DNA of 35,434 nt from a virus. The notes below the pieces were generated by a model that was not told the origin of the DNA, made no database searches, and saw nothing but the letters and a program-made list of their open reading frames with translations. Below, one piece after another: positions 10,116 through 30,276 of the stretch (position 1 is its first letter; every line of letters starts with the position of its first letter). Location: the IMG/VR virus record IMGVR_UViG_3300042485_000229, positions 1 to 35,434 of that record; one strand, given 5' to 3'. A program made the position numbers and the translations under genes.

Positions 10116-13100
10116 TTAGCATGATCCGTCAAACATTTGGATTGATAATGTACCGCCGTCGCTTACAACTTGTCCAGCAAAGGATCTACTTGTTGACGTT
10201 GCACTAATACAAGTAAGATTAGAATCAGTATCTATAACCTCAACAGAATCGTTGCTTATATTTGTGTAAGATACAACTATGGTTTTAGATGCACCGGTTT
10301 CAGTTGTTGTAGCACTTGCGCCGTCACCCGCTACTATTGGGAATGTTGCTCCGTCTACTTGCACTCCGCCAACAGTTATATTTGTAATGTCAGTACCAGC
10401 CGTGTTGTTAGCAATATCAACAAAAGCATAACCTAAAGTAGTTGTAGTAGTTGTTGTACTTGTAGTTGTTGTAGTTGCAGCCGTTGTTGTAGTAGTTGTT
10501 GTACTTGTTGTTGTAGGCGCAGCCGTTGTAGTTGTTGTAGTTGTACTAGTTGTTGTTGTAGTAGTAGTAACACAATTTACAACCGCTCCGGAGCTTACAC
10601 CTTTATTTCCTAGATCATCCATAATTGCCACATAATATGTTGCATTTGCAAGCATATTATATGTATATTCAGTAGCACCTCCTAAAAAGTCTCTAGTTGC
10701 TGAATTGTCTAATCTACTAAGCGCATCACTACTTGAACTAGAACTTATTGCAATATACTCAAAACTCTCAGTGCCTCCGCTAAACCCATTAGCAGTTATT
10801 GTACCTGTACCCTCACCACCACTACAACCCGGTGTTGCACTTAATGTAATTGCAGCATAAGTAGTAGTAGTTGTTGTTGTACTTGTTGTTGTAGTAGTTG
10901 TTGTTGGCGGAGCCGTTGTTGTAGTAGTTGTTGTACTAGTTGTTGTTGTAGGCGGAGCCGTTGTAGTAGTTGTTGTTGTACTAGTAGTTGTTGTTGTTGG
11001 CGGAGCCGTTGTAGTAGTTGTTGTTGTACTAGTAGTTGTTGTAGTTGTTGTTGTAGTAACATCTGGGCATGTTTGACATGTCTCTTCTGTCCATACTGCT
11101 ACAAATTGACCACCTTCAATAATAATAGTAAATCCTCTGCTAGTGCCAGTACATTCGCTTAACCAGAAATTGCCAGTTATTGTACCATTTGCAATTAAAG
11201 TACTTGTCAATTTAGTTGCAGTACATAAAGTGTTACCACCAGCCAAAATAGTAAATGTTTCAACTGGACGCGCTGGATTTGGACATACTACATTACATAC
11301 ATCATAAGCACTTGTCATGCTATAAGAAGCGACAAAAGTAGCTAAAGTTGTAGTTGTAGTTGTTGTACTAGTTGTAGTAGTTGTTGTTGTTGTAGATGGT
11401 ACAAAATCAGTACCAACTGCATCAATGACTCTTAACAAATCAACCTTTGTAGTATCATAATTTTCTGGACTATAATCATACACTTTTATAAGTCTATAAA
11501 GTCCGCCATCAATAAAATAATACTTTGCAAAATCTATATTGTAAATGTCTAATTCCGTTAAATCAAAAAAGCCAGTTAATAAACGGCTATCTTTATCGGT
11601 GATCTCTGCCATATATGGCGAGTAATAAACATTGAATAAGTTATAACTTAAATCACCACTTGTCAAGTTAAAAAACAATTGCTGAGGCGCTCCAAAATTT
11701 ATGTCAATAGTTGGTGTTGTTGGGTTGTTTAAATGCCCAGCAAATAAATACGCAGTGTTTGATCCTAAGTTAGTGGCTCCGTTTAAGATGCTCCAACTTG
11801 TAATGCTGCTAATTTTGTTAATCTGCATAATACGCACAACGTGATCCATAGGATCCTCTTTGCTATTATTGTCGGATTTTTTATAAATAGCTGGGAAAAC
11901 TTTGTCAGTTGATGCAGTACCAAATAAAGGCGATGATGCAAATATTATTTCAACGCTTTCAGTATCTTTTGCAAATTCAAGGCCATTATCATAAATAATA
12001 TCACCATATCCTTCATTAAATTTTTTACGATAGTCCTCATTGTAAAAATCATTATCTTGTTTATATTTAAAATTGTAATATCTAGCATTGATCTCACTCA
12101 TTGGTTTGATCTTAATTGCTTTGCTATGATCTAGCTTTTCACTCCAATCAACAATCGTACCAGTATAAAAGTCAACATAAGGCTTGATTACTAGATGATT
12201 TGTTTTAAATTTATCTTCAATAATCAATAAGTTAAACATTTTCATGATTGATGTCACAAAGTCTTTTTGAAATATACCTTTTGGAATTGTATCATTGATC
12301 ACCATAGCATCGCCTAATTCTACATTTGATAAAGTTGCTACGTTATTAATTACATTTACAAAGCTTGTATCTACATCAATAAAATCGCCAGATTCAAGTG
12401 ATCCAGTTGATCTTACCCTTAATACATCATTTGTTACAAGACTTACTGATAATGTTTTATTGTAATATAAGCTATCAGTATCATCATAAATTTGATTAGA
12501 TCCAGAAATTGCAACTCCGTTTTTTGTTACTGATAATGAAAACGCACCTCTTGCTAAAGAATATTCACCTAATATTTCTACTGACAAAGTTGTTGTTAAA
12601 GGGTTTGTGCCATTATATATAAATGCAGTATCACCACTAGCAGCAGTAAATAAAGAGCCATTTTTATTTTCATAGCTTACAAAATCAACACTGGTAGACT
12701 CGTTTAAAGATTGACCTACATTTGTTGTTAATCTTAAAACTTCGCTTGTTTCTTTTGTAAGTTGCTTTGAATTATTTGGCACAATTAGCTTTCTAAAATC
12801 GCTAGTATTAAACAAATCGCATTCGTAAGTATAGCCACTGCCAGTGAAAATTTTATCTAGATATTCACGCACAAATAATGCTGGCTTAAATGTCTTATAT
12901 TGGAAATTTACTTTGTCAGTGCTTACATTGCCATAGTCAATCAAAGGATAGCAATAACCAGTGCTGCCACTAGTATCCCAGCTTGCCACAATATTTGCAT
13001 AAGAGTATGTGTGATCATAAGCACTAAAATCTAATTTCTCAAGTCTTTTATTGCCAAGCGCATTTATAAATCCGCCTAATTCACCAAATAATGCGCACTC

Positions 13101-13439
13101 ATACTCAATTGCTCCGTCAATATGTACAATCTCAAGTAAGCGCAAAACACCTTTCATGATCTGCAATCCGTCAATCTCTATTCTTGCAGATGCATTACGC
13201 GCTGCATTAAAGTTTGCCAGCACATTTGGATCAAGAGGATTGTCAAAGTTAGCATTGTTAAAATCAAAGATATTGCCTAGCAATTTATTATTGTTAGCAG
13301 TGCCGGGCAATACTATTGTCTTTGTAAAGCTGGTGCTTTTGCTATCTAGGTTTTGTAGATCATCAATGGCATAAGTAATCTGGTTGCTTAAGCCTTGCGT
13401 CAAATCAAGTTCATATCCTTCAATAAATATTCTAGTCAT
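10116..13439 (-). CDS. Large tail-tip protein with Ser/Thr tracts
   Basis: This 1107-aa protein begins MTRIFIEGYELDLTQGL. The first 660 or so residues form a large mixed domain typical of baseplate/tail-tip proteins in Bacteroidota phages (STSFTKTIVLPGTANNNKLL near residue 34). From about residue 685 the chain becomes modular: Thr tract, a Cys-containing domain, long Thr tract, a second domain with TPGCSGGEGTGTITANGFSG, third tract, and a terminal beta domain ending in FDGSC. The tracts contain eight copies of Ser followed by exactly seven Thr. The three end domains look like interchangeable adhesion modules on stiff stalks. A glycosyltransferase gene follows. The role at the tail tip is inferred from neighbours. 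Confidence 0.72.
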   Translation of the reverse strand: MTRIFIEGYELDLTQGLSNQITYAIDDLQNLDSKSTSFTKTIVLPGTANNNKLLGNIFDFNNANFDNPLDPNVLANFNAARNASARIEIDGLQIMKGVLRLLEIVHIDGAIEYECALFGELGGFINALGNKRLEKLDFSAYDHTYSYANIVASWDTSGSTGYCYPLIDYGNVSTDKVNFQYKTFKPALFVREYLDKIFTGSGYTYECDLFNTSDFRKLIVPNNSKQLTKETSEVLRLTTNVGQSLNESTSVDFVSYENKNGSLFTAASGDTAFIYNGTNPLTTTLSVEILGEYSLARGAFSLSVTKNGVAISGSNQIYDDTDSLYYNKTLSVSLVTNDVLRVRSTGSLESGDFIDVDTSFVNVINNVATLSNVELGDAMVINDTIPKGIFQKDFVTSIMKMFNLLIIEDKFKTNHLVIKPYVDFYTGTIVDWSEKLDHSKAIKIKPMSEINARYYNFKYKQDNDFYNEDYRKKFNEGYGDIIYDNGLEFAKDTESVEIIFASSPLFGTASTDKVFPAIYKKSDNNSKEDPMDHVVRIMQINKISSITSWSILNGATNLGSNTAYLFAGHLNNPTTPTIDINFGAPQQLFFNLTSGDLSYNLFNVYYSPYMAEITDKDSRLLTGFFDLTELDIYNIDFAKYYFIDGGLYRLIKVYDYSPENYDTTKVDLLRVIDAVGTDFVPSTTTTTTTTSTTTTTTTLATFVASYSMTSAYDVCNVVCPNPARPVETFTILAGGNTLCTATKLTSTLIANGTITGNFWLSECTGTSRGFTIIIEGGQFVAVWTEETCQTCPDVTTTTTTTTTSTTTTTTTAPPTTTTTSTTTTTTTAPPTTTTSTTTTTTTAPPTTTTTTTSTTTTTTTYAAITLSATPGCSGGEGTGTITANGFSGGTESFEYIAISSSSSSDALSRLDNSATRDFLGGATEYTYNMLANATYYVAIMDDLGNKGVSSGAVVNCVTTTTTTTSTTTTTTTAAPTTTSTTTTTTTAATTTTTSTTTTTTTLGYAFVDIANNTAGTDITNITVGGVQVDGATFPIVAGDGASATTTETGASKTIVVSYTNISNDSVEVIDTDSNLTCISATSTSRSFAGQVVSDGGTLSIQMFDGSC
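10438..10572 (-). repeat. Threonine-codon microsatellite, tract 3
   Basis: A run of ACT/ACA/ACG triplets (GTT/GTA on the plus strand) encodes the last Thr tract of the 1107-aa protein. It holds three Ser-Thr7 units separated by AAP-like and AAT-like joints. It separates the second and third C-terminal domains. Confidence 0.9.
10861..11072 (-). repeat. Threonine-codon microsatellite, tract 2
   Basis: This is the longest tract. It encodes four Ser-Thr7 units, the first three closed by Ala-Pro-Pro. At the DNA level it is a tandem array of near-identical blocks of about 40-50 bases, so it could recombine unequally. Confidence 0.9.
11346..11397 (-). repeat. Threonine-codon microsatellite, tract 1
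   Basis: A short tract with one Ser-Thr7 unit preceded by about eight Thr. It joins the large N-terminal part of the 1107-aa protein to the first C-terminal module. Confidence 0.88.
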
Positions 13440-20660: not shown

Positions 20661-21185
20661 TTAATTATTAGTGTTAAGACATAAATGCTTTAACTCAAGT
20701 TTTGTTTTACGAATAATATCTTTGACATGTTTTTCTGGTATGTTATAAAACTCCGCTACCTTTTTACATGATCTAAACTCAACATATTTATTGAAAAGTA
20801 TTGCCTCGTGTGCTTGCATCTCATCTTCACCATACTTGTCAATCAATCTTTGATTTGCTATCTTAGCAAAGGTAGGATTTAATTCTGGTAACTTTAGCTG
20901 GCTTTTTAGGTACATGATCGCTTTCTCATATTCATTTTTCCTAAACTTCTTATAAAATTGGCTTGTGCTGCTAAAGGCCATATTTGTAATAATCTTAATA
21001 GAAAATCCTAAAAGGCCATTAGAGGCCCATATTTCGTTTATCTTTTCACAATCGATGCCGAGTAAGGCTAAAGCCATTTCTTGCCTTAAATCGTCTTGCA
21101 ATGACTCTGGACGCACACTTTTGATCAGTTGATTAATCTGTGGTGAGCGATAGATGCTTTCAATATGTTTATAGCAATCTTTCAT
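20661..21185 (-). CDS. Sigma-like / helix-turn-helix transcription regulator
   Basis: The C-terminal 40 residues, with VEFRSCKKVAEFYNIPEKHV and then KDIIRKTKLELKHL, look like a sigma region 4 or related helix-turn-helix. The N-terminal 110 residues, with SLQDDLRQEMALALLG and GFSIKIITNMAFSS, look like sigma region 2 (short helical segments preceding a conserved N-M-A). I prefer the ATG at 21185 (174 aa). A TTG four codons upstream lies within the -7 box TACATTTG (minus strand, 21202-21195) and is unlikely to be used. The gene is preceded by paired GTAC-rich repeats, which suggests autoregulation. It could direct late transcription of the structural genes. Confidence 0.68.
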   Translation of the reverse strand: MKDCYKHIESIYRSPQINQLIKSVRPESLQDDLRQEMALALLGIDCEKINEIWASNGLLGFSIKIITNMAFSSTSQFYKKFRKNEYEKAIMYLKSQLKLPELNPTFAKIANQRLIDKYGEDEMQAHEAILFNKYVEFRSCKKVAEFYNIPEKHVKDIIRKTKLELKHLCLNTNN

Positions 21186-21198
21186 GGCTTTGTACAAA

Positions 21199-21306
21199 TG
21201 TACTCAATGTACTCGGTTTTTGCGTGTTTTTTTCTTCCTATACTATTCTTTTTTATTTTTATACCCCCCCCTAAGAAAATCAAAAAAATAGAGTACATCG
21301 AGTACA
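21199..21306. promoter_or_regulatory. Paired GTAC-rich inverted repeats upstream of regulator (operator or origin)
   Basis: TGTACTCAATGTACTC lies at 21199-21214. The reverse complement of 21291-21306 is TGTACTCGATGTACTC, with one mismatch, so two 16-base blocks face each other across 76 bases. Each block is itself two direct copies of an ATGTACTC-type octamer. The left block overlaps a -7 box TACATTTG on the minus strand just before the regulator gene. The spacer contains T-rich runs and eight consecutive C. Likely uses are an operator for the regulator or iterons of an origin. No coding frame is visible in the gap 21186-21335. Confidence 0.75.
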
Positions 21307-21335
21307 AATATTATATTCTATTGTAAATCAATGAT

Positions 21336-21518
21336 TTAAGTAGTTTCAAAATTGTGCGAAAATTGTGCAACATGCACATTTTTGATTGTTTTTGCACAAT
21401 TTTGACGCTTTTCTACCTTCACTTTTTGTCCATCCCACTCAAAAATGCCACCTTCTGGGTTATCCTTTAGCCATTTTTCAAATGCTGCTATCGGACTTAG
21501 ATAAGATTTTAAACTCAT
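21336..21518 (-). CDS. Hypothetical protein, 60 aa
   Basis: It starts MSLKSYLSPIAAFEKWLKDN at ATG 21518; a TTG at 21581 would extend it but lies deep in the previous gene. It overlaps the 3' end of the primase-helicase by 41 bases. The text GGIFEWDGQKVKVEKRQ (about 25-41) suggests a small beta hairpin. The C-terminus is polar and His/Asn-rich. No family is recognised. It is the last gene before the GTAC repeat region. Confidence 0.5.
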   Translation of the reverse strand: MSLKSYLSPIAAFEKWLKDNPEGGIFEWDGQKVKVEKRQNCAKTIKNVHVAQFSHNFETT

Positions 21519-23973
21519 GTTTGTTGTTATTTTGACGATTTCGTCTTGTTTCAATAATATATCCAAACAGATCACTGGCAACTTGTATGCCCTTTTTAAA
21601 TCTTATTTGGGTGTAGTCTTTTTTGTCAAGATCGTTGGTGTTTAAAAATGATGTGTACTCAATGCCAAACTCCATCCACTTGTCACCTTCTAAGCTATCA
21701 TAGTAGTCTAAGAAATCCTCTGTGAAATTAAGCTTTACATTCTTACGGATGATGGTATCACTATTGTCCAGTGCTGGGATGCCGGCCTCAAGATATATCT
21801 GGACGCACTCAATCATGTAATTGTAAAAGCGATTCCACTCGTCATGATCCCAGTCATTAAATAAAGCTTTGCCTCCAAAGAAATCAAGCGGTGTGTTCTT
21901 ATGATTAAAGAAACTGCTAAACTCAATCACCTTAACTCTTCTTTTGCCATGACCACCAGAGTAGTTGATTGTGTAGTTGGTAGTGAATCCAAACTTCGGT
22001 GAGTCCTCGTAGGAAATATAAACCTCGTCTTTGTTTTTCTTTTCTATTGTCACACCTTCTGTGATCTTAGAGTAGAATCCTTCAAAGTCTACATTCTTAC
22101 GGCAATCCTCAATGACTATCAATTGCGTGCTTAACTCAACTCTTTGGAATGCAAAGGACTTGTCAAGCTTAAAGTTTTTGCCATCAATAGATACTAAATT
22201 GATCAGTTTGCCAATAGCTTTAAAGAATAGACCTTTGCCGGCGCCACCACCTTGTGCCTCATCTTCTGTCTCTTCTGCTAGGATCACTGCAAAAGATTTG
22301 GTAGGATCTTTGTAAGTATGCAAAAGATAACCAATCAAACTAATTGCATAAGCTTCACGCTCTTTGTCCGAATTGCTGATCTTGTTAATGAATTTAGTGT
22401 ACTGCACATTCTCATAGTCGATGTCATGATCAATGTCAATCTTGTACTGGATCACTTGATCGCGCCACACATGCATATTGATAGCGCCATACTTAAGCAA
22501 TTCCTTTTTATCTTTTGTGACATGCACCACGCCGTTAAGGAATGGATAATATGCAGAGTCTTTGGTATGCTTTAAAAACTTTAATTCTATGTTAGGCATA
22601 AACTCAAAGAGTGCTTTATTAAAATAAGCATCTGCGCCTTTGTAGATCACTTCACGCAGTCGCATCTTATTGATGCCGTCAAAGTTATCATAAGGGATAG
22701 CATCTATGTAATTGATCAAATACTTTTTAATCTGCTCAATGTTAGTCTCGCTGACAAAGTTATCTACTACACGCACCAGTTGATAGTTTAACTTTTTATC
22801 ATAGTAGTAAAGATAAAAGCCACCTTCATTTGATAATAGACTAATCAGTTTATAACGATCAATTGTGATCTGTCCTTTTGTTACTGACCAGAATGTTAGC
22901 AGTTGCGTGTCATTATCCGAGTCCATGTCTTGCACTAGCTTTTTAGCTTGCTTGATGTCAAGCTTATGCTTTTGTGATAAAAATGCTGCGATGTTTTCAT
23001 TGTCAATGCCTTCATCTTTTTTGTTGACAAAGTCTTTTTTTATGTTGCCTCCGATCCTATTTCGTTGCTCACCATAGCCATCCTTTACCAGTTGCTTTGC
23101 AGCTTCGCTAAAGTTACCATTATGCTCTAGTGTCGCATAGATAGCGAATGGCTTATATCCTTTGCCAGTGTCAAACTCTGTGCTTGTGCTAAATACTTTA
23201 AATAGTCCAAGGCCTTTGTGATAATCGGCCGAGATGTGCGAGTCAGTCTTGCCGGGCCTTTTAAGAAAGTCACGCTCACCACGCGACTCTATGTAAGTCC
23301 AGCCATGCGCCTCAAGTAGTGCCACCACATCACATTTGCTATTGTAGTCATCCCACGGCGTTGTTTGGTAAGTGTCCGAGTCAGCCACTACTTGCGTGCG
23401 CACCTCTTTGACCACTTCATTGAATGATCTGCAAATTGAGAGGATACTATCTCTCTGTTCCAGAGAGATTATATTCACCTTAAATTCTTTCTCTTTTGTG
23501 TAGCCTTCGGATGGCGGCGCTAATACATAGCCACCCTCACCGCGCGTCTCAATTAACACAATCTCTTTTGCGTGTGGTGTTTCTTTTAGTTCATCTTTTG
23601 TTGCGTTCCGCATGGCAAGCTTTTGATTGCCTTGCACCTCTTCGCATCGGTAGTACAAATGATAACCGCCGGACTTTGTGCGCACTACATAAAGTAGCGG
23701 CATAAGATCAGCCAGTGCATCTTGTAGTCTTTGCCAAAGGTTGCCGCTCACATCATATTTAAGATCAACATCTATAATCTCAAGTCCGCCAGATACGGCA
23801 CCACCTATGATCGCAATGTTCTTGCAACGATCATTTGTGAACTGGTGTTGTATTGTTGCATCATCCATGATGCTTGACTGAAATTCCGTCCAAGGAAAAA
23901 CGGCACGCTTATTTTCTCCGATTGGTATAACAGAGAATCCTTGCTTTGCATAGTAGTTGGCTGCTTTTATCAT
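21478..23973 (-). CDS. Primase-polymerase / SF3-like replicative helicase
   Basis: This 831-aa protein combines two replication enzymes. The N-terminus is a prim-pol domain: KQGFSVIPIGENKR (10-23), GGLEIIDVDLKYD with the catalytic D68-x-D70, and RTKSGGYHLYYR (98-109). The C-terminal half is a D5/SF3-type helicase: Walker A GGGAGKGLFFKA near residue 580, Walker B LIVIEDCRK near 618, sensor FGFTTNY and arginine finger GKRRVKVIEF near 680. It primes DNA synthesis and unwinds the phage genome. Length and motif order are normal for phage enzymes of this kind. It overlaps the VRR-NUC gene by four bases. Confidence 0.9.
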   Translation of the reverse strand: MIKAANYYAKQGFSVIPIGENKRAVFPWTEFQSSIMDDATIQHQFTNDRCKNIAIIGGAVSGGLEIIDVDLKYDVSGNLWQRLQDALADLMPLLYVVRTKSGGYHLYYRCEEVQGNQKLAMRNATKDELKETPHAKEIVLIETRGEGGYVLAPPSEGYTKEKEFKVNIISLEQRDSILSICRSFNEVVKEVRTQVVADSDTYQTTPWDDYNSKCDVVALLEAHGWTYIESRGERDFLKRPGKTDSHISADYHKGLGLFKVFSTSTEFDTGKGYKPFAIYATLEHNGNFSEAAKQLVKDGYGEQRNRIGGNIKKDFVNKKDEGIDNENIAAFLSQKHKLDIKQAKKLVQDMDSDNDTQLLTFWSVTKGQITIDRYKLISLLSNEGGFYLYYYDKKLNYQLVRVVDNFVSETNIEQIKKYLINYIDAIPYDNFDGINKMRLREVIYKGADAYFNKALFEFMPNIELKFLKHTKDSAYYPFLNGVVHVTKDKKELLKYGAINMHVWRDQVIQYKIDIDHDIDYENVQYTKFINKISNSDKEREAYAISLIGYLLHTYKDPTKSFAVILAEETEDEAQGGGAGKGLFFKAIGKLINLVSIDGKNFKLDKSFAFQRVELSTQLIVIEDCRKNVDFEGFYSKITEGVTIEKKNKDEVYISYEDSPKFGFTTNYTINYSGGHGKRRVKVIEFSSFFNHKNTPLDFFGGKALFNDWDHDEWNRFYNYMIECVQIYLEAGIPALDNSDTIIRKNVKLNFTEDFLDYYDSLEGDKWMEFGIEYTSFLNTNDLDKKDYTQIRFKKGIQVASDLFGYIIETRRNRQNNNKHEFKILSKSDSSI

Positions 23974-24339: not shown

Positions 24340-24993
24340 TTAGAATAGTTTTTGTTGTTTTGTATGATTGTTAATGCGATCCATTGCTTTGTTATAGTAT
24401 TCAGCATCAAGCTCGCACGCGGTTAAATCAAATTTGTAATCGTGGCAAGCTATTGCTATTGATCCGGAGCCTAGGTGCGTGTCTATAATCTTATCACCTG
24501 GCTTTGCGTATTTATCAAGTAGCCATTTGTAAAGAGCTACCGGCTTTTGAGTTGGGTGTATTCTTAACTCTTTATTTTTCATATTTTCTTGAAGCATCCC
24601 TTGCCATTTAAATTTATATTTTCTAACTGAAGTTTTAAAACTTGTCCAAGCTAACTCACAATCTGCAAAATCTGTATTGCCGTTATCTTTATCCCAAACT
24701 ATCCAACAAGATGAATCAAAAGGTATTTTACTTATAAAATGATTAGCACCAAAAATAATTTGGTTTTTACTTACTCTTATTAATTCGTTAAAATATTCAA
24801 TATTTGGAGAACTAATATCATTTCCTGCAAAAGCTTTATAATCTTTAGGCTTAGCAAGGCCTCCGGTTCTAGTTTTATTTTTAGATCCGTCTTCGCCTAT
24901 CCCATATGGCGGATCAACTATGGCCAAATCAAAGTGCTTATCCGGGTAGCGGGCCATTAAGGTCATGTTATCTTCGTTGGTTATTGTTAGCAT
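24340..24993 (-). CDS. DNA methyltransferase (beta-class, N6-adenine or N4-cytosine)
   Basis: This 217-aa enzyme transfers a methyl group from S-adenosylmethionine to DNA bases. Catalytic motif IV is DPPY (27-30) in LAIVDPPYGIGEDG. The SAM-binding motif I is DTHLGSGSIAIA (171-182), preceded by HPTQKP (146-151). The order IV then I makes it a beta-class enzyme. No restriction endonuclease lies beside it, so it probably protects phage DNA or marks it for regulation. It is the first gene of the leftward arm. A -7 promoter box ends only four bases before the ATG, so the message may be almost leaderless. Confidence 0.9.
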   Translation of the reverse strand: MLTITNEDNMTLMARYPDKHFDLAIVDPPYGIGEDGSKNKTRTGGLAKPKDYKAFAGNDISSPNIEYFNELIRVSKNQIIFGANHFISKIPFDSSCWIVWDKDNGNTDFADCELAWTSFKTSVRKYKFKWQGMLQENMKNKELRIHPTQKPVALYKWLLDKYAKPGDKIIDTHLGSGSIAIACHDYKFDLTACELDAEYYNKAMDRINNHTKQQKLF

Positions 24994-25094: not shown

Positions 25095-25688
25095 ATGGCT
25101 TTATCAAATTTAGGAGGTGTTAACACAACTTACCTCAGTGTTGCGGACGGCAACTTAGTACGCCAACACAAACAAGCAACCGAGCGCACAACGGAGCGCT
25201 TAACAAAAACCGGCAAGCTAGTATATGAAGAGAGATTTAAGGATCTCACTGCAACACTAGAGAACATCACCACGCGCACCAATGACTATGGCACGCAGTG
25301 GCAATTGCATTTTAAGGATGGTGATGCTAGCTATGTAGTTAGCTTGCCTTATTCCAGTCGCTATGCATCAAGCTTTTTAAAAGCATTGCCAAATCTAGAC
25401 ACATCTAAAGATGTACGTTTTATGCCTTGGGCAATGAAGGACAAGCTTGACGCTACAAAGATCATCACTGGTGTAACTTTGTATCAAGATGGCGAGAAAA
25501 TTGCACCAGCTTATACCAGAGAGGATCCAAACGGATTGCCACAAATGGTGAAGATCAAGGTCAAAGGCAAAGAGCAGTGGGATGATTCCGACATGATGCA
25601 ATTCCTAGAGCAAATGGCATTTAAACTTTTTGCAGATGCAAATGATAACAATCCAGTGCTTGACGCTGAGGATGAAACACCTTTTTAG
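25095..25688 (+). CDS. Single-stranded DNA-binding protein, phage type
   Basis: This 197-aa protein has a beta-rich core compatible with an OB fold (LENITTRTNDYGTQWQLHF and ASYVVSLPYSSRYASSF) and an acidic C-terminus ending DAEDETPF. The terminal acidic-Pro-Phe tip is the hallmark by which SSB proteins recruit partner replication enzymes. The gene stands alone between a strong promoter and its own terminator, as expected for a protein made in large amounts. The family is not the bacterial SSB by sequence, so the assignment rests on fold impression, tip and context. Confidence 0.72.
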   Translation: MALSNLGGVNTTYLSVADGNLVRQHKQATERTTERLTKTGKLVYEERFKDLTATLENITTRTNDYGTQWQLHFKDGDASYVVSLPYSSRYASSFLKALPNLDTSKDVRFMPWAMKDKLDATKIITGVTLYQDGEKIAPAYTREDPNGLPQMVKIKVKGKEQWDDSDMMQFLEQMAFKLFADANDNNPVLDAEDETPF

Positions 25689-25762: not shown

Positions 25763-25954
25763 ATGCCAGTTGTAAAAATTACAAAAGAAACAGATTTGAT
25801 CTTTAATGAAGATAGATACTTTATTAGAGTAGATGGAAAATTTATAAAAGGCTTTGCTACTTTAGAGCAAGCCGAAGAGATAGCAAACCAGATCGCCAAG
25901 AACGGCGGCAGAGAAAAAACAGATGAGATCACCATTAAAGAAATTATATGCTAA
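25763..25954 (+). CDS. Hypothetical protein, 63 aa
   Basis: It begins MPVVKITKETDLIFNEDRYF and contains RVDGKFIKGFATLEQAEEIA, a beta hairpin followed by a helix. The pattern of a short beta-beta-alpha unit with an E-Q-A-E-x-I-A helix resembles small phage proteins of unknown role. The stop overlaps the start of the RecB-like nuclease by seven bases, so both are in one unit. No family is assigned. Confidence 0.5.
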   Translation: MPVVKITKETDLIFNEDRYFIRVDGKFIKGFATLEQAEEIANQIAKNGGREKTDEITIKEIIC

Positions 25955-26697
25955 TCAAAAATCAAACATCAAACCAGCTAACATTTAAAGACGGCCGATT
26001 CTACACAGATGAAAACGGCAACTATTTCCCTAGTGCCACCACTTTGCTTGAGGCATACCCAAAGCCAGCACAACTTATCATGTGGATGAAAGAGGTAGGC
26101 AGCAAAGCGGATGAGATCCGTGACGCAGCCGGCAAGCGCGGATCAAGTGTGCATCAACTGACTGAGGACTATGATCAAGGCATTGAGTGTACTTTGCTTG
26201 ACGAATATGGCAAGCCTAAATACTCACTTGAGGAATGGTCAATGTTTGAGCGCTATGTTGAGTTCAGCGTAAACCATAAGCCAGAGCATCATTTAGTTGA
26301 ACAAACATTTATCAGCAGTGGCTTAGGCTTTGCTGGCACTATTGATCGTGTATGCACTATTGATAGCAAGACTTATGTGCTTGACATTAAGACCAGTAAC
26401 GGCATTTACAATTCGTACTGGTTGCAGTTGGCTGCATATCGTGAATTATATAATGCAGCATTAGATCACACAGAGGCCATGCCGAGGATTGATGGCGTGG
26501 CTATCTTATGGCTAAATGCTAAGACTAGGACTGCCGGCAAAGGCGATGCCATACAAGGCAAAGGATGGCAGATGGTGACTGAGATGGACACCACAAAGCA
26601 GTGGTCATTATTCCAAGCCGTCCAGCAATTGTGGCACGCAGAGCATGAGAATGATAGGCCAAAAGAATTTAGTTATCAACTTTCTCACAAAAAGTAA
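25948..26697 (+). CDS. RecB/lambda exonuclease-like PD-(D/E)xK nuclease
   Basis: This 249-aa nuclease has the ordered motifs of the RecB-like family: H69 in RGSSVHQLTED, D133 in GFAGTIDRVC, D146-x-K148 in YVLDIKTSNG, and Q160 in YWLQLAAYREL. Such enzymes resect double-stranded DNA ends for recombination or repair during phage replication. The N-terminal 30 residues (YTDENGNYFPSATTLL) are typical of the phage branch. It sits between an unknown small gene and the DnaQ-like exonuclease in the replication arm. Confidence 0.88.
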   Translation: MLIKNQTSNQLTFKDGRFYTDENGNYFPSATTLLEAYPKPAQLIMWMKEVGSKADEIRDAAGKRGSSVHQLTEDYDQGIECTLLDEYGKPKYSLEEWSMFERYVEFSVNHKPEHHLVEQTFISSGLGFAGTIDRVCTIDSKTYVLDIKTSNGIYNSYWLQLAAYRELYNAALDHTEAMPRIDGVAILWLNAKTRTAGKGDAIQGKGWQMVTEMDTTKQWSLFQAVQQLWHAEHENDRPKEFSYQLSHKK

Positions 26698-26709
26698 TAA
26701 CTTTATCCC

Positions 26710-27441
26710 ATGACTACCAAAAGAAAACGATTATATTTTGACATTGAGACCAGTGCAAACATCGGTTTCTTTTGGCAAAGTGGGTTTAAATTAAACATTG
26801 GGCCACAAAATATTATTAAAGAGCGTGCAATCATTTGCATTTGCTATAAGTGGGAAGATGAGAAAGAGACACATGCTTTGACTTGGGATAGCAAGCAGAA
26901 TGATAAAAAGATGCTCAATGATTTTATCAAAGTGCTTAACACGGCAGATGAGATCATTGGACATAATGGTGACAAGTTTGATCTTGCATGGGTGCGCACT
27001 AGATGTTTGTTTCACGGCATTGACATGTTCCCAAAATACACAACGATTGATACTTTGAAAGTGGCGCGCTCAAAGTTTAAGTTCAACTCAAATAAACTTA
27101 ACTACATTGCTACGTTTTTAGGGATCGGCCAAAAGATTAAAACAGAGTTTGATCTTTGGAAAGACATCGCATTAAAAAATGACAAGGTAGCACTTGCTAA
27201 GATGGTGAAATATTGCAAGATGGATGTTGTATTACTTGAGAAAGTACACAAGCTTTTAAATAATCACATAGATGCCAAGACGCACTATGGTGTTATCTTT
27301 GGCGAGTATAAAGGCACATGTCCAGAATGTGGATCGGATGATTTGCATAAACATAGCAGACAAATTTTATCTAGCGGCACAATTAAAATAATTTATAAAT
27401 GCAAGACATGTGGGAAATTTCACCGAAAGACGGACAAGTAG
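26710..27441 (+). CDS. DnaQ-like 3'-5' exonuclease with C-terminal zinc ribbon
   Basis: This 243-aa protein has the DEDDy exonuclease motifs: YFDIETS (D11, E13), GHNGDKFDLAW (D91) and YCKMDVVLL (Y168, D172). After a linker, a zinc ribbon is formed by CPEC (204-207) and CKTC (231-234). There is no polymerase domain, so it is a free exonuclease, perhaps a proofreading partner or a nucleotide-recycling enzyme. The zinc ribbon may target it to DNA or a partner protein. Its last codons overlap the start of the DUF3310 gene. Confidence 0.87.
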   Translation: MTTKRKRLYFDIETSANIGFFWQSGFKLNIGPQNIIKERAIICICYKWEDEKETHALTWDSKQNDKKMLNDFIKVLNTADEIIGHNGDKFDLAWVRTRCLFHGIDMFPKYTTIDTLKVARSKFKFNSNKLNYIATFLGIGQKIKTEFDLWKDIALKNDKVALAKMVKYCKMDVVLLEKVHKLLNNHIDAKTHYGVIFGEYKGTCPECGSDDLHKHSRQILSSGTIKIIYKCKTCGKFHRKTDK

Positions 27442-27638
27442 GCGGATCGCATTATAAGGATTGCAAGATCCAGCCAACTGAATTTATACATGCAAATAAT
27501 ATACCTTTTATTGAGGGCAACATTATCAAGTATGTGATAAGACATCGCAACAAAAATGGCATTGAAGATTTAAAAAAGGCAAAGCACTACATTGATCTAT
27601 TAATACAATTTGAATATGAGACTACCAAAGTTATTTAA
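27399..27638 (+). CDS. DUF3310 protein
   Basis: This 79-aa protein includes GGSHYKDCKIQPTEFIHANN and then IIKYVIRHRNKNGIEDLKKA, the recognisable core of DUF3310 (small phage proteins once described as nucleotide-kinase-like). The biochemical function is unsettled. The ATG at 27399 overlaps the exonuclease gene by 43 bases; a second ATG at 27408 is equally possible. The gene lies in the replication arm, as DUF3310 genes usually do. Confidence 0.85.
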   Translation: MQDMWEISPKDGQVGGSHYKDCKIQPTEFIHANNIPFIEGNIIKYVIRHRNKNGIEDLKKAKHYIDLLIQFEYETTKVI

Positions 27639-27642
27639 TAAA

Positions 27643-27813
27643 ATGAAACTATCCGAGCAAGAGACATGGCTTACTAATAAGCTGGCAGAGGTGCATGGCA
27701 TTGAACAAGAAATAAGACGTTATCTTGCTAAGGTACGCGGCGGCCAAATTATTTTCACGCCTAGTGATCAATTAGATCGTTTGGATGAAATAGAATTAAA
27801 GAAAGATGCTTAA
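27643..27813 (+). CDS. Hypothetical protein, 56 aa
   Basis: It starts MKLSEQETWLTNKLAEVHGI at ATG 27643, five bases after the DUF3310 stop. A TTG at 27610 would extend the frame but lies within the previous gene. The protein is a helical hairpin with a basic middle (IRRYLAKVRGGQ) and an acidic end. It overlaps the next start by eight bases. No known family is recognised. Confidence 0.5.
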   Translation: MKLSEQETWLTNKLAEVHGIEQEIRRYLAKVRGGQIIFTPSDQLDRLDEIELKKDA

Positions 27814-28078
27814 GATCAAAATCATATATCGCAAACTTGGCAGAGAGCAAGCACACGGCCTTGCCAGTAGCGATGGTGTTATTGAAATTGACGAGCGATT
27901 AAAAGGCAAAAAGCATCTAGAAATATTAATACATGAGGTATTGCATTTGCTTTATCCTCGTAATTCCGAGGCTACCATAGTAAAAAATTCAGTCATGCTT
28001 ACACGCATTCTCTGGAAAGAGGGTTACAGACGTGTGGATCAAAAAGAGGACGAGCCGCTACAAGACGGCTTAATATAA
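27806..28078 (+). CDS. Mini zinc-metalloprotease-like protein (HExxH)
   Basis: This 90-aa protein has a beta-rich start (MLKIKIIYRKLGREQAHGLA), then GVIEIDERLKGKKHLEILIH and the zinc motif H43-E44-V-L-H47 in LIHEVLHLLYP, followed by a helical end with LTRILWKEGYRRVD. The layout is a cut-down zincin reminiscent of SprT-like or ImmA-like folds. A third zinc ligand is not clear. It may be an active protease against a host factor or a structural zinc protein. Similar short proteins occur in other Bacteroidota phages to my recollection. Confidence 0.65.
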   Translation: MLKIKIIYRKLGREQAHGLASSDGVIEIDERLKGKKHLEILIHEVLHLLYPRNSEATIVKNSVMLTRILWKEGYRRVDQKEDEPLQDGLI

Positions 28079-29747: not shown

Positions 29748-29930
29748 ATGGCGAATCACCAACAATGGCAAGACCTTACGATCATAGAAAAAATTGATCT
29801 GGTAGGCAAAGTTACACACCTTTTACAAAATGACGAGGATAGCTTTAATGCTTTTAAAAGCTGGGTAGGAGCAAGTGAATTGCTTGGATTGTTTAACGAG
29901 GTAAAAATCAACAATGAAGGAAATTCTTAA
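29748..29930 (+). CDS. Hypothetical protein, 60 aa
   Basis: It begins MANHQQWQDLTIIEKIDLVG and is helical and acidic throughout (LLQNDEDSFNAFKSWVGASE). No motif or membrane segment is seen. It overlaps the DnaA-like gene by 17 bases. The tight packing between two genes of the same unit supports a real gene. I do not recognise the family. Confidence 0.55.
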   Translation: MANHQQWQDLTIIEKIDLVGKVTHLLQNDEDSFNAFKSWVGASELLGLFNEVKINNEGNS

Positions 29931-30276
29931 TTACATTAAATTGTACACTGGATGCAATGAACACGCTTTAAAGCGTATTGAGGCAATGCTAGAGCCTAGA
30001 CTACAACCGGTAGTTGTAGAAAAAATAGTAAAAGTTGAGAAAATTGTGCATCGTAAATTAAAGCCAAAAGTAGTCATTGAAAAATGGGCAGAGACTTACC
30101 TTGCAGAAAATGGCTTAACATACAAGCAAATGCTGGACAGATCACGCAAGCAAGAGATCGTTGATCTAAGGTATGACTTTATAAAAGCTGCTTATTTTAA
30201 CGGCTATAATTGTACCTCAATTGCTAGGTTTCTAAAGCGCGATCACTCAACTATTATTTATGCAATAAATAGCTAG
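29914..30276 (+). CDS. DnaA domain IV-like DNA-binding protein
   Basis: This 120-aa protein has a charged N-terminal helix and a repetitive VEKIVKVEKIVHRKLKP linker (35-51). The C-terminal third (RKQEIVDLRYDFIKAAYFNG and then SIARFLKRDHSTIIYAI) matches the helix-turn-helix and signature of DnaA domain IV, where the basic loop before R-D-H-S-T contacts DnaA boxes. No AAA+ domain is present, so it would bind DNA but not melt it alone. It may recruit replication proteins to a phage origin or compete with host DnaA. The gene ends the rightward arm, and its stop lies in the terminal hairpin. Confidence 0.75.
   Translation: MKEILNYIKLYTGCNEHALKRIEAMLEPRLQPVVVEKIVKVEKIVHRKLKPKVVIEKWAETYLAENGLTYKQMLDRSRKQEIVDLRYDFIKAAYFNGYNCTSIARFLKRDHSTIIYAINS

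Follow-up and report, generated by a model that had tools for sequence, protein, structure and literature searches.

The C-terminal domain of the SaPI Rep protein is expected to read iterons that lie directly downstream of its gene, and the isolated C-terminal domain of SCCmec Cch2 binds the iterons directly downstream (PMC7581432). The origins of the E. coli PICIs always have two sets of iterons placed around an AT-rich region (PMC6092414). The essential region of the pRN1 plasmid was described by its authors as a stem-loop, without iterons, and they found no specific binding of the pRN1 protein to its origin region; the primase of P4 alpha is of the TOPRIM type (PMC4234260). The architecture that we describe here is known from PICI/SaPI origins.

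The window is the whole stretch of DNA that we analysed, 35,434 nucleotides from the IMG/VR virus record IMGVR_UViG_3300042485_000229. Going down from 24993, every gene as far as the regulator is on the minus strand, the order being methylase, VRR-NUC, Prim-Pol/helicase, 60-aa ORF, repeats and sigma-like gene; the repeats closely follow the helicase gene and immediately precede the regulator gene (Table 1). These facing repeats are very probably the replication-origin iterons of a Bacteroidota phage, read by the C-terminal end of its own primase-helicase.

Table 1. Features at the proposed origin, in window coordinates
Feature	Position	Strand	Remarks
Prim-Pol/D5-type helicase, 831 aa, proposed initiator	21478..23973	-	Prim-Pol 8.4e-18; proposed origin directly downstream
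Winged-helix-like C-terminal domain, about residues 735-831, proposed iteron reader	21481..21771	-	
Arg813 codon, wing tip in the model, predictor of TGTA iterons	21535..21537	-	
Small ORF, 60 aa, overlapping the end of the helicase gene	21336..21518	-	
Sigma-like regulator, downstream of the proposed origin	20661..21185	-	Sigma70_r4 0.028, below cut-off
-7-type promoter box of the regulator, TACATTTG, overlapping the outer iteron	21195..21202	-	
Regulator-side arm, two iterons and inward T-run	21199..21216	+	TGTACTCAA (21199-21207), TGTACTCGG (21208-21216)
Helicase-side arm, two iterons and inward T-run	21289..21306	-	TGTACTCGA (21306-21298), TGTACTCTA (21297-21289)
Outer third copy, partial, TGTACAAA	21191..21198	+	GTAC at 21192
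Core between the arms, T-, G8- and A-rich	21217..21288	.	

The two facing 16-base blocks that an earlier sequence-only reading had pointed out are indeed present: TGTACTCAATGTACTC (21199-21214) stands opposite the inverted GAGTACATCGAGTACA (21291-21306), with 76 bp between them. The GTAC cores are at 21192, 21200 and 21209 in the left block and at 21293 and 21302 in the right one. The repeat unit is 9 bp long and of the type TGTACTCRA, and two tandem pairs of it face each other round a T/G/A-rich core, which in the window's clade contains a G-run as well. On the plus strand the arms read TGTACTCAATGTACTCGG (21199-21216) and TAGAGTACATCGAGTACA (21289-21306), and divided into 9-mers each consists of two iterons followed by a T-run on its inner side. 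The core is presumed to be the melting region. We searched for an exact tandem 7-mer with a period of 9 and an inverted copy matching at least 14/16 bases within 40-150 bp. This structure occurs once in the window and in 0/200 dinucleotide-preserving shuffles, so that a chance structure in the window is excluded. No second copy of the doublet was found elsewhere in the record when up to 2 mismatches were allowed.

The close relatives were taken from 34 IMG/VR loci that carry the regulator. In L001-L012 the blocks are kept almost letter for letter, and this is the conservation whose absence had been named in advance as the result that would count against the repeats. The window has its partial outer copy in common with L005/L006, and in most of L001-L012 this copy is altered. 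The length of the G-run differs among these twelve loci (8 to 11), yet the 16-bp blocks are always 74-76 bp apart. In the window the run is at 21264-21271 (C on the plus strand); its length varies in relatives and the total core length is nearly constant. A second inverted-repeat cluster, TCAAAATTGTGC / GCACAATTTTGA, lies at 21346-21405 within the small ORF; it is present in L001-L012 (L007 not covered) and absent from L013-L015. Two rearranged loci, L026 and L052, have an SSB-like gene after the helicase, keep the -7 box, and carry direct blocks of ACTTTTGTACAACTTTTGTACAT ahead of the regulator in place of facing arms.

L013/L014 and L015 keep the same layout and the G-run/TATA-like core and have different repeats in both arms (TATACACAC/ATACATACT in L013/L014 and TTACTCACT/TTACTTACT in L015). 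Every gene of the window was compared with six complete relatives. The complete relatives, of about 35 kb, have most genes in common with the record, and a few genes at 25948-28078 found no match in L013/L014. The clearest separator of the repeat groups among the window genes is the stretch of the helicase from residue 720 to 831, which is 65% identical between the window and L013/L014 and 95-96% identical within the group that shares the repeats, as compared with 98% identity between the window and L013/L014 over residues 400-720. A layout that is conserved while the helicase C-terminal domain changes with the repeat supports the suggestion, also made by the sequence-only reading, that these are iterons of an origin. 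The methylase gene (24340-24993) is missing from the six complete close relatives and present in L024/L025 and L033; it is mobile or often lost.

The helicase itself was characterized by domain searches and structural modeling. Its N-terminus matches PF09250 (Prim-Pol, 8.4e-18, above the cut-off), which identifies an AEP/Prim-Pol protein, and residues 575-581 form an invariant GGGxGKG motif. The full-length AlphaFold model (mean pLDDT 81, pTM 0.53) was matched by Foldseek to SaPI5 Rep (7ola) with an E-value of 2.5e-11 and a target-normalised TM of 0.53-0.63, which together with the motif indicates a D5/SF3-type AAA+ helicase fold; it also resembles AsfvPrimPol (8iqi) and MPXV E5 (poxvirus E5). 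Sequence searches against solved structures gave no significant match, and a phage database yielded only partial Prim-Pol or helicase matches and no relative of the regulator. DUF5906 was found in 33/43 relatives. Modeled alone (pLDDT 84), the C-terminal part consists of helices followed by a beta-hairpin, the wing, and its best Foldseek matches are mostly winged-helix proteins, none of them significant. The C-terminal 100 or so residues are thus predicted to form a winged helix, with residue 813 at the tip of the modeled hairpin. This model, together with the covariation with the repeats, supports the C-terminal domain as the putative iteron reader.

A wider set of 76 helicase relatives was collected, down to about 41% identity. 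Most of them have facing arms downstream, and the repeats are specific to the lineage (TGTACTC, TATACAC, TTTACTC, TGTAACC, AGTATCG and CTAACGTAT), with arm sequences that include TATACTCAA, TGTACGCGG, TGTAACCGA and AGTATCGAT. The spacing of the inner iterons is 86-90 bp in the clade of the window, as against 81-84 bp in a distant clade with TGTAACC/AGTATCG repeats. Arms were detected by an inverted Smith-Waterman alignment and the iteron register by regular expressions, in place of a noisy k-mer arm finder. About half of the 28 loci tested had an inverted alignment score above all 60 shuffles, five further loci exceeded all shuffles but one, and the remainder were weak; by this automatic score the arms of L045, L047, L060, L063, L052, L080 and L082 are not significant. 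A relative of the helicase, L259, has CGGTACAAC repeats and comes from the genome of Chitinophaga japonensis, where it is probably a prophage.

A single position of the helicase has predictive value. In the first set of sequences, residue 813 is Arg where the iterons contain TGTA, and Pro, His, Thr, Asn or Ser where they contain TATA, TTTA or similar. A first rule, in which Arg goes with any G before TA, was set down ahead of new scans and was broken by L222 (His, AGTATCG). The revised rule, in which Arg goes with TGTA, was set down before a second, small held-out set was read. In that set L275 and L280 have Arg and TGTA iterons, L274, L276, L277 and L279 have Trp and CTAACGTAT, and L278 has Gln and ATATACTCG; L272 (Ile, TGAAGCGAT) is an ambiguous case, as it lacks TGTA but retains the TG. 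L259 and L273 (both Ser, CGGTACAAC) agree with the revised rule but are outside the held-out set. When Arg at 813 is set against TGTA iterons, 24/24 and 19/19, or 43/43 sequences, are concordant. L048 (Arg) has ATAC in place of GTAC in one of its four iterons. On a tree built from helicase residues 1-700, with the iteron registers assigned by hand, residue 813 and the repeat each change 8 times, and jointly. All 7/7 independent pairs switch together (p=0.016, a value that ignores the choice of column and rule), and in a scan of columns 813 alone predicts perfectly, with the runner-up at 81%. A single-residue code read from these alignments is a strong, partly post hoc lead. Neither lineage-specific repeats nor a one-residue predictor was found in the literature searched. 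A broader proposal, which we put forward tentatively and would not quite call probable, is that D5-type initiators follow a readable code for iteron recognition, with the wing-tip residue as a switch: Arg reads 5'-TG before TA, and A, T, C or a shifted G is accepted when another residue stands there. This proposal would also make the architecture of two iterons per arm at a fixed spacing general to AEP-SF3-winged-helix initiators, including those of archaeal pRN1 plasmids, and have the origin specificity of these phages change repeatedly by few substitutions.

Other explanations of the repeats have to be weighed against these findings. The one that survives best, while still improbable, is a cruciform or hairpin origin recognized by its shape, as proposed for pRN1. 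The arms are complementary and their single-stranded folding is better than that of shuffles (z -3.7), and AEP-SF3-winged-helix proteins of the pRN1 type reportedly have a downstream stem-loop. However, the tandem iterons are still there in L045, L047 and L048, whose arms show poor pairing or differ in copy number, and recognition by shape has no need for a wing residue that tracks the identity of a base. Slightly less can be said for operator pairs of the sigma-like regulator, which would regulate its own promoter by looping. Paired sites do suit cooperative binding, and it is true, as had been noted, that the left block overlaps the -7 box, here 17 nt ahead of the regulator gene; a TANNTTTG box precedes the regulator start by 16-18 nt in the closest fifteen loci (L001-L015) as well as in L024-L026. 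Still, the repeats cannot be read by the regulator, because it is 96% identical between the window and L013/L014, where the repeat is completely different, and so the motif does not follow it. Additionally, L026 has the -7 box but not these arms, and in the distant clade the arms precede a gene of another kind, which leaves operators very unlikely. The same low probability applies to the product of the small ORF as the reader in place of the helicase. This ORF does diverge together with the arms (74% identity over 65% of its length in L013), but its product has no recognizable DNA-binding domain, and in the distant clade the helicase stop and the first arm are no more than about 60-90 nt apart, which leaves little room for it while the Arg rule still holds. 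The further suggestion that the phage methyltransferase, whose gene is 3 kb from the repeats, targets the GTAC cores can be set aside with near certainty, since complete relatives that keep the arms have no methylase, GTAC is not enriched genome-wide (111 seen vs 101.5 expected), and the arms of other lineages lack GTAC.

Two more proteins of the window were considered as readers and rejected. A 120-aa protein (29914-30276) has a weak match to the DnaA C-terminal HTH; in phages whose arms are the same its sequence identity lies anywhere between about 60 and 98%, so it does not track the arms. The SSB-like protein (25095-25688) has a similarly wide range of identity among same-arm phages.

Returning to the origin reading, the phage Prim-Pol/D5-type helicase would bind the iterons through its C-terminal winged helix, with Arg813 contacting the TG step. 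Two helicase oligomers would flank the T/G/A-rich core in head-to-head orientation and at a set distance, a double hexamer would be loaded at the arms, the core between them would melt, and the same enzyme would then unwind and prime. Binding of the initiator to the arm that contains the -7 box may also repress the regulator promoter, and given this overlap a conflict between replication and transcription is possible there. Part of the covariation of the arms with the C-terminal domain could stem from joint recombination, because the coding region of this domain physically adjoins the origin. The GC skew analysis that had been recommended does give a minimum, near 25 kb, but this is where the gene direction flips and the skew follows gene direction, so the check does not decide the origin.

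These findings name a probable origin and its presumed initiator for an uncultured Bacteroidota phage family, and they provide a natural series of origin-specificity changes for which a partner residue can be pointed out. L054 and L070 carry different iterons (TGTACGC in L054, TTTACTC/ATACTT in L070), yet from residue 735 on only 10/93 aligned residues distinguish them. This opens the recognition step of self-loading D5-type helicases to testing with a small number of mutations. Having private iterons may, in addition, stop co-infecting relatives from using each other's initiator.

Looking at the known systems again, P4 alpha resembles our proposal in being a primase-helicase with a C-terminal winged-helix domain that binds the origin (ori/crr), and its structure (1ka8) has a weak fold similarity to the window's C-terminal model (Foldseek rank 47, E 0.71). 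It differs in its TOPRIM-type primase, in place of which the window has a Prim-Pol (AEP). The pRN1 protein ORF904 shares AEP, SF3 and winged helix with the window helicase, although pRN1 is an archaeal plasmid. The 100-bp region downstream of its gene has 21-nt inverted arms with 58 nt between them and an inward T-run, and each arm contains TGTCCATAG-TGTCCAACT; that of pHEN7 contains TGTCACCAC-TGTCACAAC. Both thus show two 9-bp repeats per facing arm (L354:5084-5183 for pRN1, L356:385-488 for pHEN7). The paired-repeat pattern is weaker in pDL10 and pSSVx, and no clear tandem arms were found in BIP-1. From these repeats the pRN1 origin may share the paired-iteron architecture of the window. SCCmec Cch2 is, like the proposed initiator, a self-loading D5-type helicase with a putative origin directly downstream, but it works with a separate primase and only three iterons (AAGTG), on a mobile cassette and not a phage. 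The PICI/SaPI systems have, as the window does, an AEP primase with a D5-type helicase, the origin directly downstream of the gene and two iteron sets on either side of an AT-rich region (PMC6092414). The resemblance to SaPI5 Rep (7ola) is one of fold but not of sequence. Here there are two iterons per arm at a fixed spacing, and the carrier is not a satellite but a 35-kb phage that has a terminase and structural genes of its own: judged by eye, both terminase-like and structural-like ORFs are present on the record of about 35 kb. One ORF, at 10116-13439, is predicted to encode a large structural protein in which threonine forms long runs.
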